This document shows, in pieces, positions 6,610-13,197 of a DNA stretch of 33,756 nucleotides. Below the pieces are notes generated by a model that was not told the origin of the DNA, did no database searches, and saw only the letters and a program-made list of their open reading frames with translations. This DNA is from Methanobacteriota archaeon (lineage in GTDB: Archaea; Thermoplasmatota; Thermoplasmata; RBG-16-68-12). Within the stretch, counting starts at the first letter, position 1. Each line of letters begins with the position of its first letter. The DNA lies in contig VBMG01000121.1 in assembly GCA_005878485.1 (NCBI GenBank), positions 1 through 33,756 on the forward strand, given 5' to 3'. The position numbers were made by a program, and so were the translations under genes.

Positions 6610-7548
6610 TCAGCTTGGAGAAGGCCGCCCAGTCAGGCCGATCGTGGGCTCGACGACGATCGGGATGAAGTCGTACGTGCCGTCGTCCCGCTCGATCCCG
6701 AGTTCGAGCGAGCATGCGAACGTCGCGCCGCGGATTCGCACCCGAGCCGACTCCTTCGTCAGGAAGTCGTAAACGTCCGGCGTGACGCTCTCGTTTCCCT
6801 TGGACCTCCACAAGACGAGGATCCGGGCGGGCGGGATGCGGGTCGCGCTCGAGACGTCTTCGACCGCGGCTTTCAACGACTGCAGGTCTCCGAGGGTGGG
6901 TGCGCGGTCGAACGCTTTCACGAACACCCCGAAGCCCGCGGCTCCGACATTGAGGAAGCGCCAGAGGGTCGAAGGCCGCTGACGCACGTACGCGTCGAAC
7001 GAGTACGTGAGCCCGCTCTTCCCCGTGAGCAGTGCGGGCGTCGCGACCGCGCCGGGGATCGACATGACGCCGCGGACGTCGTTGCTCGTGTTCCCCAGAT
7101 ACGTGAGGATTCGCTGGACGGCGTCTTTCCCTTCCGGCACGTAGACGATGGGGTCGGCCTGTCGCACCCGCTGGATCACCCGGTGCCGCAAGGCGAAGTA
7201 GTCGAAGAACGACCGCAAGTCCCGCATGAGCTCGAGGATGGAGAAGCCGAGGATGAACAGGGCCACGAGGACCGCCCCCAGGAAGAGGAACGGGCCCATC
7301 GAGAGCGCTTGGAAGCCGCCGAACACGATGGCGAGGGCAAGCAGGATGAGCCGCGCGGTCGACGTCTTCGCGAGTCGCACTCCGAGAAGGAAGATCAATA
7401 TCGGGAGGAACAGGAGGAGGGTGAGGCCGGCTCCTCCGCCGGGGAACGACACGATCAGGATGAGGAAGAAGTCGAGGACGAGCCAGAGCGACACGAACCA
7501 GCGGACGTACCGGAGCGTCTTGCGGATCTTCGGCGTCTCCCGGTCCAC
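6610..7548 (-). CDS. Four-TM membrane protein with large cytosolic domain, unknown function
   Basis: 312 residues. Four hydrophobic helices fill about residues 15-115 (FVSLWLVLDFFLILIVSFP, LTLLLFLPILIFLLGV, LILLALAIVFGGFQAL, FLFLGAVLVALFILGF), followed by a soluble domain of about 190 residues with no motif I know. The GTG start at 7548 has GGAG close upstream. The TTTATTAT box at 7621-7629, which serves the tRNA on the other strand, could also be read as ATAATAAAG for this gene, giving a leader of about 50 nt. A longer overlapping frame at 5816-7591 is a shadow: its product is almost only Arg, Pro, Asp and Gly. Confidence 0.7.
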   Translation of the reverse strand: MDRETPKIRKTLRYVRWFVSLWLVLDFFLILIVSFPGGGAGLTLLLFLPILIFLLGVRLAKTSTARLILLALAIVFGGFQALSMGPFLFLGAVLVALFILGFSILELMRDLRSFFDYFALRHRVIQRVRQADPIVYVPEGKDAVQRILTYLGNTSNDVRGVMSIPGAVATPALLTGKSGLTYSFDAYVRQRPSTLWRFLNVGAAGFGVFVKAFDRAPTLGDLQSLKAAVEDVSSATRIPPARILVLWRSKGNESVTPDVYDFLTKESARVRIRGATFACSLELGIERDDGTYDFIPIVVEPTIGLTGRPSPS

Positions 7549-7651: not shown

Positions 7652-7763
7652 GTCGGGGTGGCTCAGCCTGGTGGAGCGTCGGACTCATAGGGTTCTTGCC
7701 GTTTCCTGACCGCGGCGCTCCTGGGGTATCCGGAGGTCCGGGGTTCGAATCCCCGCCCCGACA
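7652..7763 (+). tRNA. Elongator tRNA-Met (CAT) with intron
   Basis: The cloverleaf can be drawn by eye. Acceptor GTCGGGG (7652-7658) pairs fully with CCCCGAC (7756-7762), with discriminator A at 7763. The D stem is GCTC/GAGC. The anticodon stem TCGGA (7679-7683) pairs with TCCGG (7729-7733), with one G-T pair. The anticodon CAT is at 7686-7688, the variable loop is AGGTC, and the T stem CGGGG/CCCCG encloses TTCGAAT. The D loop contains GG. The first pair is a normal G-C rather than the A-U typical of initiators, supporting the elongator. CCA is not encoded. The gene is 112 nt because of a 38-nt intron. Confidence 0.93.
7690..7727 (+). other. tRNA-Met intron at position 37/38 with bulge-helix-bulge
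   Basis: The intron lies between A37 (7689) and A38 (7728). CTCA (7684-7687) pairs with TGGG (7722-7725) as the 4-bp central helix. The three-base bulges are TAG (7688-7690) and GTA (7726-7728). Cutting after the second base of each bulge removes exactly 7690-7727 and restores the loop CTCATAA. An inner hairpin GCCG/CGGC (7698-7701 with 7713-7716) closes the intron. This is the substrate form of the archaeal splicing endonuclease. Confidence 0.9.
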
Positions 7764-7806: not shown

Positions 7807-7825
7807 TGTAACAAGCGGTGTTACA
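7807..7825. promoter_or_regulatory. Operator 1: TGTAACA-N5-TGTTACA, before the DUF4331 unit
   Basis: Perfect 19-bp inverted repeat with core GTAAC-N7-GTTAC. An AATACG element starts 10 nt after the core and could be the TATA box. The same core, spacing and downstream element occur before the TrmB-family gene (12328-12348). The two segments also share the flanking GCC before and ACG, then AATACGCC, after the core. This is the predicted binding site of that regulator (inference). Confidence 0.7.
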
Positions 7826-7916: not shown

Positions 7917-8198
7917 ATGACTGACGACAAGAAATCGAAGATGACGAGACGGAGCTTCTTGCACAAGACCGCGGTCGGTGCGGCGGCCGTCGGCGCGATG
8001 GCCGCGGCTCCGACCCTTGTGAAACTCACGGAGAATGTCCAGGGCGTGTCGCCGCCCTCGGGAGATCCGACCGCGCCTCTCATGGCGTATGTGAAAGACC
8101 CGGCGCAGGGGACGATCGTGGTCATGTGGGGCACGCGAGAGTTCACCGCCCGAGATCCTGCGCTCGTGTCGCGTCTCGCGACGTACACGAAGGGGTGA
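7917..8198 (+). CDS. Small Tat-signal protein, partner of the DUF4331 protein
   Basis: 93 residues. A twin-arginine signal is clear: 'TRRSFLHK' at about residues 10-17, followed by an Ala/Gly/Val-rich h-region and an AAAP end, so the protein is exported folded. The mature part is only about 60 residues, ending 'VVMWGTREFTARDPALVSRL'. The start ATG 7917 is set by the GGAGGGG Shine-Dalgarno sequence 7 nt upstream. It is followed after 6 nt by the DUF4331 gene, which lacks its own signal; the small protein may carry its partner through the Tat pore or anchor it (inference). The biochemical role is unknown. Confidence 0.8.
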   Translation: MTDDKKSKMTRRSFLHKTAVGAAAVGAMAAAPTLVKLTENVQGVSPPSGDPTAPLMAYVKDPAQGTIVVMWGTREFTARDPALVSRLATYTKG

Positions 8199-8204
8199 GC
8201 CGCG

Positions 8205-9653
8205 ATGTCGTCTCACCGCGAAGCCCCGTCGATTTCGAAGGACCCCGTCGCGGACAACACGGACCTGTACGCGTTCGTCGACCCCGCCGACCCGTCGAAG
8301 GTCACGATCCTCGCGAACTTCATCCCGCTCGAGGAGCCCGCGGGCGGTCCCAACTTCTTCCAGTTCGGGGACGACGTCCTGTACGAGATCCTCATCGACA
8401 ACGACGGGGACGGCGTCGAGGATGTCACGTACCAGTTCCGGTTCAAGACGACCACGCAGAATCCGGGGACGTTCCTCTACAATACGGGCCCGATCGGTTC
8501 CTTGACCGATTCGAACTGGAACGTCCGCCAGATGTATTCCGTCACGAAGGTCCTCGGCCCGCGTCGGACCGGGGCTACGTCCGTCCTGGGGGCGGACCTG
8601 CCGACCCCGCCGGTGCGAATCGGGCCTCGGTCCACGCCGAACTACCCGGTGTTGGCGAGCGCCGCGGTGAATGACCTCGGCGCCGGGGTGAAGACTTTCG
8701 CCGGCCAGCGGGGCGAAGGCTTCTACGTCGACCTCGGATCGATCTTTGACCTCGGCGCGCTGCGGCCGTTCCAACATCTCCATGTGATTCCGCTGCCCGA
8801 CGCGCCCGGCGTGAACGGGACGAAAGGATTCAATGTCCACACGATCGCGATTCAGGTCCCGAAGACAGACCTCACCCGGGGGGAATTCAATCCGACGGAC
8901 CCGGCGGACGCCCGCTCCGTGATCGGCGTGTGGTCCGCGGCGAGCCGGCGGAAGGCGATGGTGCGCGAGAAGGATGCGCGGGTCGTGCAGACGGGCCCCT
9001 GGGTCCAGGTCTCGCGACTCGGCGAGCCCCTGATCAACGAGGTCGTCATCGAACTGGGGGAGAAAGACCTCTGGAACAGCCGGCCGCCCGCGGGCGACTC
9101 CCAGTTCCTCGACGACTACGCGCAACCGGGGTTGCAGACTCTCCTGGCGATTTTATACCCGGGCGTCTTCCCGAACCTCGCGGCTCTCGCGAAATCGGGC
9201 AAGACCCGCGCGGATCTGATCGCGATCCTGCTCACGGGAATCCCGCCTGGCGTGATCACGGGCTTCCAGAACTCGAACGGGCCCACCCAGGCGGACGAGC
9301 TGCGGCTGAACCTTGCGTTCGCCCCGACCTACGACGCGACCGATTCGGGCATCAACCCGCCCGGCGACAGCAACAAGCGGTTCGGGATTCTCCGAGCCTT
9401 TACAGCGGACGGCTTGCCGGATCTCGATGGCTTCCCGAACGGCCGCCGGGTGTTCGACAACGTGACGGCCATCGAATTGCGCGCGATCGCGGGGCTGACG
9501 TTCCCCCTGGTCGATAACACCTTCACCCCCGACGGCGCGGCGGGACTGCTGCTGGACGGGACGAAAGAGGACCTCCCCTTCCTCCCGACGTTCCCGTACC
9601 TCGCCCTGCCGTACGAGGGCTTCGAGCACGAGCACGACCCGGAGGACGAGTAG
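8205..9653 (+). CDS. DUF4331-family protein
   Basis: 482 residues. The N-terminus 'MSSHREAPSISKDPVADNTD' and the following 'LYAFVDP...', 'EEPAGGPNFFQF' and 'YEILIDNDGDGVEDVTYQFRF' are the hallmark start of the DUF4331 family, whose function is not known. An EF-like acidic stretch (DNDGDGVED) may bind a metal. No signal peptide or TM helix is seen, although the partner gene directly upstream encodes a Tat signal. A Shine-Dalgarno sequence (AGGGGTGA) lies in the end of that gene, so the two are co-transcribed and coupled. The C-terminus is acidic and His/Glu/Asp-rich (FEHEHDPEDE). Expression is probably controlled from the palindrome at 7807-7825. Confidence 0.88.
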   Translation: MSSHREAPSISKDPVADNTDLYAFVDPADPSKVTILANFIPLEEPAGGPNFFQFGDDVLYEILIDNDGDGVEDVTYQFRFKTTTQNPGTFLYNTGPIGSLTDSNWNVRQMYSVTKVLGPRRTGATSVLGADLPTPPVRIGPRSTPNYPVLASAAVNDLGAGVKTFAGQRGEGFYVDLGSIFDLGALRPFQHLHVIPLPDAPGVNGTKGFNVHTIAIQVPKTDLTRGEFNPTDPADARSVIGVWSAASRRKAMVREKDARVVQTGPWVQVSRLGEPLINEVVIELGEKDLWNSRPPAGDSQFLDDYAQPGLQTLLAILYPGVFPNLAALAKSGKTRADLIAILLTGIPPGVITGFQNSNGPTQADELRLNLAFAPTYDATDSGINPPGDSNKRFGILRAFTADGLPDLDGFPNGRRVFDNVTAIELRAIAGLTFPLVDNTFTPDGAAGLLLDGTKEDLPFLPTFPYLALPYEGFEHEHDPEDE

Positions 9654-9902: not shown

Positions 9903-10277
9903 ATGGAATCGACCCGCGCGAAGTCAGGCGCAGGGTTCGGCCAATCGTGGCGCGAACTCTCGCACACGCCGACGTACCAAGTGCCAATCGTGCTTGGCGC
10001 GTTCGTGGCCCTCATCACGGGCATCCTGACTTATCTGTTCGATGCGTCGAAAGCGGGCGCGATCGTCGCCGCGACCACCGCAGAGGCCTACTTGGTCATC
10101 TTCGGTATCGTCGGCCTGATCGGCTACGCCGTGTCGAAACAGAACGTGCAGAATGGCTCCATCGTGGCCATGACCGCCGGTCTGGCGATCGTGGTCCTCG
10201 TGGCGACGCAGCTGGGCCTGTTTGCAGGCCTGCTCCTCCTCGCCGGAGCCATCTGGAGCCTCGCGTCGACCCGATAG
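9903..10277 (+). CDS. Small integral membrane protein, unknown function
   Basis: 124 residues. A short soluble start is followed by about four hydrophobic helices (VPIVLGAFVALITGILTYLF, AEAYLVIFGIVGLIGYAV, IVAMTAGLAIVVLVATQLGL, FAGLLLLAGAIWSL), with very few charges after residue 50. The very strong Shine-Dalgarno sequence implies high translation. It stands alone between the DUF4331 unit and the ABC exporter, which converges on it, and ends before a strong T-rich tract. I recognise no family. Confidence 0.75.
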   Translation: MESTRAKSGAGFGQSWRELSHTPTYQVPIVLGAFVALITGILTYLFDASKAGAIVAATTAEAYLVIFGIVGLIGYAVSKQNVQNGSIVAMTAGLAIVVLVATQLGLFAGLLLLAGAIWSLASTR

Positions 10278-12198: not shown

Positions 12199-12327
12199 AT
12201 TCCGGCTCTGTAAGGGACACGCCTCAGCCGTGGACGGGGCGGTCTCTCGACGGGACTCGGGCCGGGGCGGGCTGACACATGACTCATCACATCACGGCGC
12301 TTCTATGGGGTGTTCGTGCAGGGCCTT

Positions 12328-12348
12328 TGTAACGCTGCTTGTTACAAC
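12328..12348. promoter_or_regulatory. Operator 2: TTGTAAC-N7-GTTACAA, before the TrmB-family gene
   Basis: Perfect 21-bp inverted repeat with core GTAAC-N7-GTTAC. AATACG begins 10 nt after the core, as in operator 1, and the TAATAC box is centred about 27 nt before ATG 12385. The site sits just upstream of the promoter of the regulator gene, as expected for autoregulation by the encoded protein (inference). Confidence 0.75.
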
Positions 12349-12384: not shown

Positions 12385-13197
12385 ATGAAGATCTCCGAGG
12401 CGTCGGAGGCGCTGCAGCGGATCGGCCTGAGTCGATACGAGGCGCTCGTCTTCGTGAACCTCGCTCGGGCTGGCGCAGCGACCGCAGGAGACGTCGCGCG
12501 GGCGAGCGGTGTGAACCGGGTGCAGACGTATCGCGCGCTCGAGGGACTCGAGGCCCGCGGCTTGGTCGAAGTGACGTTGGACCGACCCCGACGGTACGCC
12601 GCACGCGCTCTCCAAGACGTCTTCGACATGATCGCGGACGAAAAGAAGGCTGAGCTTGAGAAGCTCGACGCGGTCCGGAAGATGCTCCTTGAGGAATGGC
12701 CCAAGATCTCGGGTCGCAGGCGGGAGCCCCCGTCGGTGCGGCTCCAAGTGATCAAAGGCCGCGCCCAGATCTACCGCACCCTCCGCCAGTTCGTCGCCTC
12801 CTCGAGGGAAGAGGTCCTCGCCTTCACGACGACGAAGGGCCTCCAGCGATCGTACCGCGCAGGGATCAACGAGGTGCTCGTCGAGGCGATGCGCCATGGC
12901 GTGAAACCACGGCTGCTGGCGGACGTCGACGCGACGAACCAGGTCCTGATGGCGCGTGTCGCGAAGGTCGTCCCGCTCCGTCATGTGGACCGTCAGCGGG
13001 CGCGTTTCATCATCGTGGACCGCGAGTCGATCCTAGCGTTCCTGATCCAGGACGAAAGGACGATCCGCGGGGAGGGAGAGACGGCGCTGTGGACGAACAG
13101 CCCGGACTTCGTGAAAGCCCACCGCGACTTCTTTGAGAAAGCATGGGCAGCGGCGGTCCCGGCTCGGCGTCGTCTAGCGGCGTTGCGTCCTCATTGA
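12385..13197 (+). CDS. TrmB-family transcriptional regulator
   Basis: 270 residues. Residues 1-75 form the TrmB winged helix: 'ALQRIGLSRYEALVFVNLAR', then 'TAGDVARASGVNRVQTYRAL' as the recognition helix and 'GLVEVTLDRPRRYAA' as the wing. Residues 85-115 are a charged coiled-coil-like helix (EKKAELEKLDAVRKML). The C-terminal domain starts near 120 (VIKGRAQIYRTLRQFV), resembling the TrmB regulatory or phospholipase D-like effector domain. In known TrmB proteins this domain senses sugars; the ligand here is not readable. ATG 12385 is chosen because the TAATAC box is about 27 nt upstream. The palindromes at 12328 and 7807 are its likely sites. It lies between the ABC exporter and the CHRD protein gene. 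Confidence 0.88.
   Translation: MKISEASEALQRIGLSRYEALVFVNLARAGAATAGDVARASGVNRVQTYRALEGLEARGLVEVTLDRPRRYAARALQDVFDMIADEKKAELEKLDAVRKMLLEEWPKISGRRREPPSVRLQVIKGRAQIYRTLRQFVASSREEVLAFTTTKGLQRSYRAGINEVLVEAMRHGVKPRLLADVDATNQVLMARVAKVVPLRHVDRQRARFIIVDRESILAFLIQDERTIRGEGETALWTNSPDFVKAHRDFFEKAWAAAVPARRRLAALRPH

Follow-up and report, generated by a model that had tools for sequence, protein, structure and literature searches.

Is a DUF4331 protein that lacks an export signal nonetheless exported, and could the small protein encoded directly before it supply the missing signal? The question is raised by two adjacent genes in the window, 33,756 nucleotides of contig VBMG01000121.1 (assembly GCA_005878485.1) from a Thermoplasmata archaeon. 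The first gene encodes a small twin-arginine-signal protein, here called sTat, and the second encodes a long-form DUF4331 protein.

7917–8198, + strand: sTat, a 93-residue protein with a twin-arginine signal (PF10399, TIGR01409, family alignment, regional dN/dS)
8076–8195, + strand: conserved mature core of sTat, residues 54–93 (invariant residues; AlphaFold2 secondary structure at low confidence)
8192–8198, + strand: GGGGTGA, a Shine-Dalgarno-like stretch that overlaps the sTat stop codon (GGTGA-stop overlap at 12 of 12 loci, in 11 genomes)
8205–9653, + strand: long-form DUF4331 protein of 482 residues, without a signal peptide and starting M-SSHREAP (PF14224, alignment)

The gene pair and its distribution

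The original prediction described a 93-residue protein with a clear twin-arginine signal, and this description is confirmed by two Tat-signal models whose cut-offs are reached: PF10399 (28.6 bits versus 24, hmmscan against Pfam) and TIGR01409 (20.0 bits versus 16.7). The twin-arginine motif reads M-T-R-R-S-F-L, an 18-residue hydrophobic stretch starts at residue 18, and the arginine pair is invariant across the 11 rows of the family alignment. By motif, hydrophobic stretch and model match together, sTat has the signal expected of a Tat substrate. Residues 1–53 comprise the signal and a linker, and residues 54–93 form the conserved core; the predicted figure of about 60 mature residues is fair, with a conserved share of about 40. 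In this core, P54, Y58, G65, V68, M70, G72, T73, E75, D80, L83 and R86 are invariant in the alignment. The median pairwise dN/dS is 0.19 for the core (45 pairs) and 0.40 for the linker (39 usable of 45 pairs), and purifying selection acts on the mature core. An AlphaFold2 model built from a two-sequence input, with a mean pLDDT of 47.8 and read for secondary structure only, places three strands and a helix in succession. No Pfam domain was found over the core by hmmscan, which returned weak Tat-signal or chance hits besides PF10399. The best NCBIfam hit of sTat, TIGR02811 (formate_TAT, a formate-dehydrogenase-region TAT target), is also a small Tat-signal protein. Membership in that family was rejected, as the match covers the signal only (residues 1–42) and scores 31.7 bits versus a curated cut-off of 48.45.

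The DUF4331 protein had been predicted to be signal-less and to lie 6 nt downstream, and both statements hold. PF14224 matches residues 2–469 over the whole model (431.9 bits versus a gathering threshold of 27). The domain begins at residue 2, leaving no space for a signal peptide, and upstream in the same frame there are just two codons before the sTat stop codon TGA. The two genes lie on the same strand with 6 nt between the sTat stop and the DUF4331 start. No other Pfam family was found in the protein by hmmscan, no PDB relatives were found by sequence, and the AlphaFold2 model has a pLDDT of 41. Neither 'DUF4331' nor 'PF14224' was found in the open-access literature searched, a scope that leaves subscription journals outside. 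The candidate location, partner, regulator and ligand site described below would be testable handles on DUF4331, a family with no known function.

To follow the pair, 400 genomes of the class were searched for sTat by HMM and for DUF4331 by PF14224. Matches to PF14224 occur in 20 of these genomes, 13 with a long form and 7 with short or partial forms. The window's genus accounts for 12 of the long forms (out of 19 genomes) and the rest of its family, with 3 genomes, for one; the 7 genomes with short or partial forms belong to other families of the class. At E<1e-30, sTat was detected in 12 of the 400 genomes, all of them among the 13 with a long-form DUF4331, which in each case lies directly downstream (gap of 4–6 nt where read). 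In the thirteenth, G183, the 5' end of the DUF4331 gene is lost at a contig start. Conservation in other genomes had been set beforehand as the test on which the prediction would fall, and the pair was found in 12 of 12 testable genomes, those whose long-form DUF4331 5' end is present, a second genus included. This recurrence places the pairing beyond chance, with the limit that all sTat genomes come from one family and the count of 12 of 12 overstates their independence.

The pair was read directly in 11 genomes at 12 loci (L001 and L011 are the same sequence). The gap between the genes is 6 nt in nine of the 11 genomes, 5 nt in G195 and 4 nt in G207, and the DUF4331 protein start is the same at all 12 loci. 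In G179, match coordinates place the two genes next to each other where a contig ends. The GGGGTGA stretch, which would serve as ribosome site for DUF4331 while containing the sTat stop, suggests translational coupling of the two genes.

Outside this family the pair was not encountered. Long-form DUF4331 was not seen elsewhere in a 389-genome sample of the phylum, sTat was absent from the plasmids searched (tblastn gave one chance hit, E=1), neither protein was found in viral contigs, and no DUF4331 was found in phages. Three weak sTat hits (G279, G137 and G078; E of 7e-5 to 1e-3) were inspected and discarded: in two, the match is confined to the Tat signals of other proteins, by eye a substrate-binding and a Rieske-like protein, and the remaining one lies in an unrelated ORF without a Tat signal.

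Two further elements lie near the pair. The first was weighed as a possible third partner and discounted, since pairless genomes such as G159 have it as well.

9903–10277, + strand: predicted membrane protein of 124 residues, a frequent neighbour of the pair and not specific to it

The second, upstream at 7652–7763, is a tRNA-like sequence with a CAT anticodon and an intron, similar to one in L001; run with bacterial settings, ARAGORN called no tRNA there.

A shared inverted repeat and joint loss of the pair

The promoter region of the pair contains an inverted repeat that recurs in the window in front of a regulator gene.

7807–7825, no strand: inverted repeat TGTAAC-N7-GTTACA, putative operator in the promoter region of the pair (repeat search)
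12328–12346, no strand: the inverted repeat again, in front of the TrmB-like gene (repeat search)
12385–13197, + strand: TrmB-like regulator (PF01978, 59.6 bits versus 25.6)

When up to one mismatch is allowed, these are the only two matches in the 2.08-Mb assembly. Across the 19 genomes of the genus, exact copies occur at 14 sites, 10 before sTat, 4 before the TrmB ortholog and none elsewhere. Copies with one mismatch precede the TrmB gene in G183, G144 and G187, and in the sister genus an exact copy precedes sTat. For the regulator, the ATG at 12385, which lies past the repeat, was taken as the start; the GTG at 12310 would give the longest ORF. The score against PF01978 assigns a TrmB HTH domain to the protein, and the cut-offs of the sugar-sensing TrmB/TrmBL equivalogs are not reached (best 49.4 versus 650 bits). 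An ortholog (76–86% identity) is present in 9 of 12 pair-bearing versus 1 of 7 pairless genomes of the genus (Fisher p 0.02, uncorrected for relatedness or assembly gaps), and neighbours the pair in several genomes. From this distribution, the regulator is probably dedicated to the pair. We infer that it binds the inverted repeat, through which it would switch both the pair and itself.

The pairless genome G159 (91% complete, scored as lacking the pair in the PF14224 search) retains a scar. At positions 6903–7142 of its locus L098, a one-mismatch copy of the promoter repeat runs straight into the DUF4331 sequence from residue 415 onward. As read from this junction, sTat and most of DUF4331 have been removed by one deletion. 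The TrmB ortholog nearby is broken, and the gene for the membrane protein next to the pair is preserved intact, with 96% identity. The scar check covered G159 among the 7 pairless genomes of the genus.

Bacterial relatives and a proposed escort role

DUF4331 matches were present in 40 plasmid records, of which 26 were read; the other 14 are mostly close relatives. A signal-peptide-like leader is found in 22 of the 26, made up of 21 long forms and one Nostoc protein, so that every bacterial long form read (21 of 21) has a leader of its own. Cleavage sites were assigned by visual inspection under the −3,−1 rule. In all 22 records S-S-H, A-S-H or S-D-H follows immediately on the leader, whose last residue is Ala in 19, Ser in 2 and Gly in 1. 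Most of these leaders look Sec-type; some actinobacterial ones hold an RR and could be Tat signals. The remaining 4 of the 26 proteins are short and leaderless, and their start codon is followed at once by S-N-H or S-H-H. M-S-S-H opens the archaeal long forms, at the very point where the bacterial leaders end, and the domain and predicted mature N-terminus are the same in both groups. In contrast to the archaeal pair, the bacterial genes carry their leader in cis, have TPR and NicO/HupE neighbours (a TPR gene near at least 16 of the 22 leader-bearing genes) and are without sTat in the plasmids searched. In a tree of 34 DUF4331 proteins, whose root is arbitrary, all 10 from archaea group in a single clade (100/100) that falls among the leader-bearing proteins, and its nearest neighbour is Miltoncostaea, with weak support. 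The bacterial leader ends exactly at the archaeal start, and the simplest reading is that an ancestral cis signal has probably disappeared, its role taken over in trans by sTat.

Other neighbourhoods were noted among the bacterial records. In five Rhodobacterales plasmids (L060, L061, L063, L092 and L093), DUF4331 lies beside type II secretion genes rather than a transporter, with GspK or PulK in all five and a prepilin peptidase in four. In the Pseudoalteromonas plasmids L059 and L096, genes for a sigma-70-type factor and an anti-sigma factor are followed by DUF4331.

Taken together with the gene order, these observations make it likely that sTat is a Tat escort (a hitchhiker carrier or caddie) for the DUF4331 protein. 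A signal in one partner only, with adjacent and apparently coupled genes, is the arrangement expected of hitchhiker pairs and is the one found here. A carrier model also predicts that relatives of the pair will have in cis the signal that is missing, which fits the 21 of 21 bacterial long forms. The predicted charges of the two proteins are opposite (computed pI of 8.4 for mature sTat versus 4.65 for DUF4331) and count in favour of an escort, as do purifying selection on the sTat core and the presence of TatC in 17 of the 19 genus genomes. In the proposed sequence of events, sTat and DUF4331 would be made from one mRNA, with the stop codon of the first overlapping the ribosome site of the second. 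Binding of sTat to DUF4331 would then take place in the cytoplasm while DUF4331 folds, perhaps with uptake of a ligand, and the two would leave together through the Tat translocase on the twin-arginine signal of sTat. The earlier proposal of a two-part secreted complex is supported in part, by the conservation of the pair, the bacterial cis signals and the joint loss in one genome; complex formation and Tat-dependent passage stand as predictions. The pairing is more regular than the window by itself could show. With linkage, conservation, joint loss, a shared repeat and leader-bearing bacterial relatives all visible at the sequence level, comparative genomics gives the carrier interpretation good support.

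Comparable arrangements have been described. In the Streptomyces tyrosinase operon, a Tat-signal helper, MelC1, is reported to carry the signal-less enzyme MelC2 (PMC2758597, PMC3817396). As in that account, a small upstream helper with a Tat signal and a signal-less downstream partner would form a two-gene operon in the archaea. The sequences are unrelated, since sTat matches only PF10399-type models and DUF4331 only PF14224 (hmmscan, Pfam), and MelC1 is tied in the cited description to copper delivery, whereas sTat/DUF4331 has no known cofactor. In the FAD glucose dehydrogenase of Burkholderia cepacia, a Tat-signal gamma subunit is described as needed for folding and secretion of the alpha subunit (PMC6719666), which likewise pairs a small Tat-signal protein with a large partner. 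That gamma subunit, in the same description, has five helices in its mature part of 121 residues, and the alpha subunit is a flavoenzyme; in contrast, sTat has about 50–60 mature residues with predicted strands and a helix, and its partner is DUF4331. The archaeal pair probably works like these two systems while being a member of neither by sequence. The partners of E. coli PaoABC are reported to be co-translocated by Tat through a hitchhiker mechanism (PMC4273604); unlike sTat/DUF4331, PaoABC is described as a three-subunit aldehyde oxidoreductase, and the likeness is one of description alone. If the escort model is right, the family would have switched export route, from a cis signal to a trans Tat escort, with the mature N-terminus kept the same to the residue, and a very small escort would be at work in uncultured soil archaea.

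A possible metal ligand and alternatives to the escort model

The conserved start of DUF4331 resembles a known metal site.

8208–8216, + strand: codons Ser-Ser-His, the predicted mature N-terminus after Met removal (ATCUN pattern; bacterial post-leader starts are alike)

An ATCUN site consists of a free amine and a His at position 3 and is described as binding Cu(II) and Ni(II) (PMC9698028). By eye, the DUF4331 sequence fits this pattern, with His predicted as the third residue of the mature chain. The escort model has a compatible extension, in which DUF4331 handles a metal through a free X-X-His, is folded or loaded before export, and has in sTat a MelC1-like metal caddie; we hold this to be possible and tentative. 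All bacterial records read are predicted to start X-X-His (22 of 22 with a leader, 4 of 4 without one), and so are the archaeal long forms at every locus read. Among the 8 short archaeal loci it is predicted at the 5 that have an ATG start; at the remaining three, translation would have to begin at a CTG. At these three loci (L017, L018 and L030, from other Thermoplasmata families), the frame ahead of T-H-H-Y-S-G-P holds no ATG, GTG or TTG near a strong GGAGG, and a CTG at 7–8 nt spacing is the likely start. That the same X-X-His start is predicted to arise by either Met removal or signal cleavage is a new observation. The N-terminus would be freed by Met removal in leaderless forms and by signal peptidase in exported bacterial forms; in the archaea, Met removal would be followed by Tat hitchhiking on sTat. 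An escort unrelated to MelC1 would thereby let a cytoplasm-processed and possibly metal-loaded DUF4331 leave the cell folded.

Gene neighbourhoods point both ways. A NicO or HupE/UreJ-type gene lies near 13 of the 22 leader-bearing bacterial DUF4331 genes, and NicO adjoins one of the 4 short bacterial forms; HupE/UreJ and NiCoT have been described as transporting nickel/cobalt (PMC2667541). In contrast, the surroundings of the archaeal pair showed no NicO/HupE-type transporter, NicO exceeds its cut-off in 3 of 12 pair-bearing versus 3 of 7 pairless genomes of the genus, and HupE_UreJ_2 is present in 0 of 19. A nickel-transport link within the archaea is thus not supported, and with neither adjacency nor tracking of the pair by NicO, metal binding stays hypothetical. 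There is also no Cys in sTat or DUF4331, N-terminal acetylation would abolish an ATCUN site, and the X-X-His conservation could be purely structural. Copper is a possible ligand of the archaeal protein. Copper monooxygenases are reported in soil Thermoplasmata (PMC9038741), and an AMO-like copper-enzyme gene is present in 4 of the 19 genus genomes, all pair-bearing (4 of 12 versus 0 of 7 pairless, too few to count). These AMO/pMMO subunit A-like matches (PF02461) are in the window's own genome (G000:C133:4775-5227, 49.1 bits), G179, G191 and G215. The full combination, a metal-binding family with a free X-X-His and a new caddie family under a dedicated TrmB switch, is doubtful.

A variant also compatible with the escort model is that the sTat signal is kept as a membrane anchor, so that DUF4331 would not be released but held on the outer face or bound to a partner in the membrane. 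A clear A-x-A cleavage site is missing from several sTat members in the alignment, and members from the genus conserve a T-E-N stretch after the hydrophobic part, as an anchor might. GAHA precedes the linker in G207, however, and several members have Ala near the signal end, and we consider a permanent anchor unlikely.

DUF4331 could instead act inside the cell while sTat is exported alone, the two sharing only an operon and a stimulus. Short-form DUF4331 proteins from class archaea and plasmid records have no signal and no sTat partner, and show M-S-x-H at ATG or GTG starts; a cytoplasmic role of DUF4331 is thus possible, and a missing signal alone does not mean hitchhiking. TatC was not found in two of the 19 genus genomes, the window's own (84% complete) and G167 (76%), and gaps in these assemblies can account for that. 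Against an intracellular DUF4331 stand the leaders in all bacterial long-form records read, and the GGTGA overlap and unbroken pairing, which suggest matched protein amounts. We judge separate fates of the two proteins, for example as a cytoplasmic DUF4331 binder and an envelope sensor or anchor, quite improbable.

Read-through of the sTat stop into a single Tat-tagged DUF4331 fusion, for which the shared frame in 9 of 11 genomes might speak, is extremely improbable and was rejected, because a ribosome-site-like stretch of its own precedes DUF4331 in every genome read and the two frames differ in G195 and G207, where the gaps are 5 and 4 nt.
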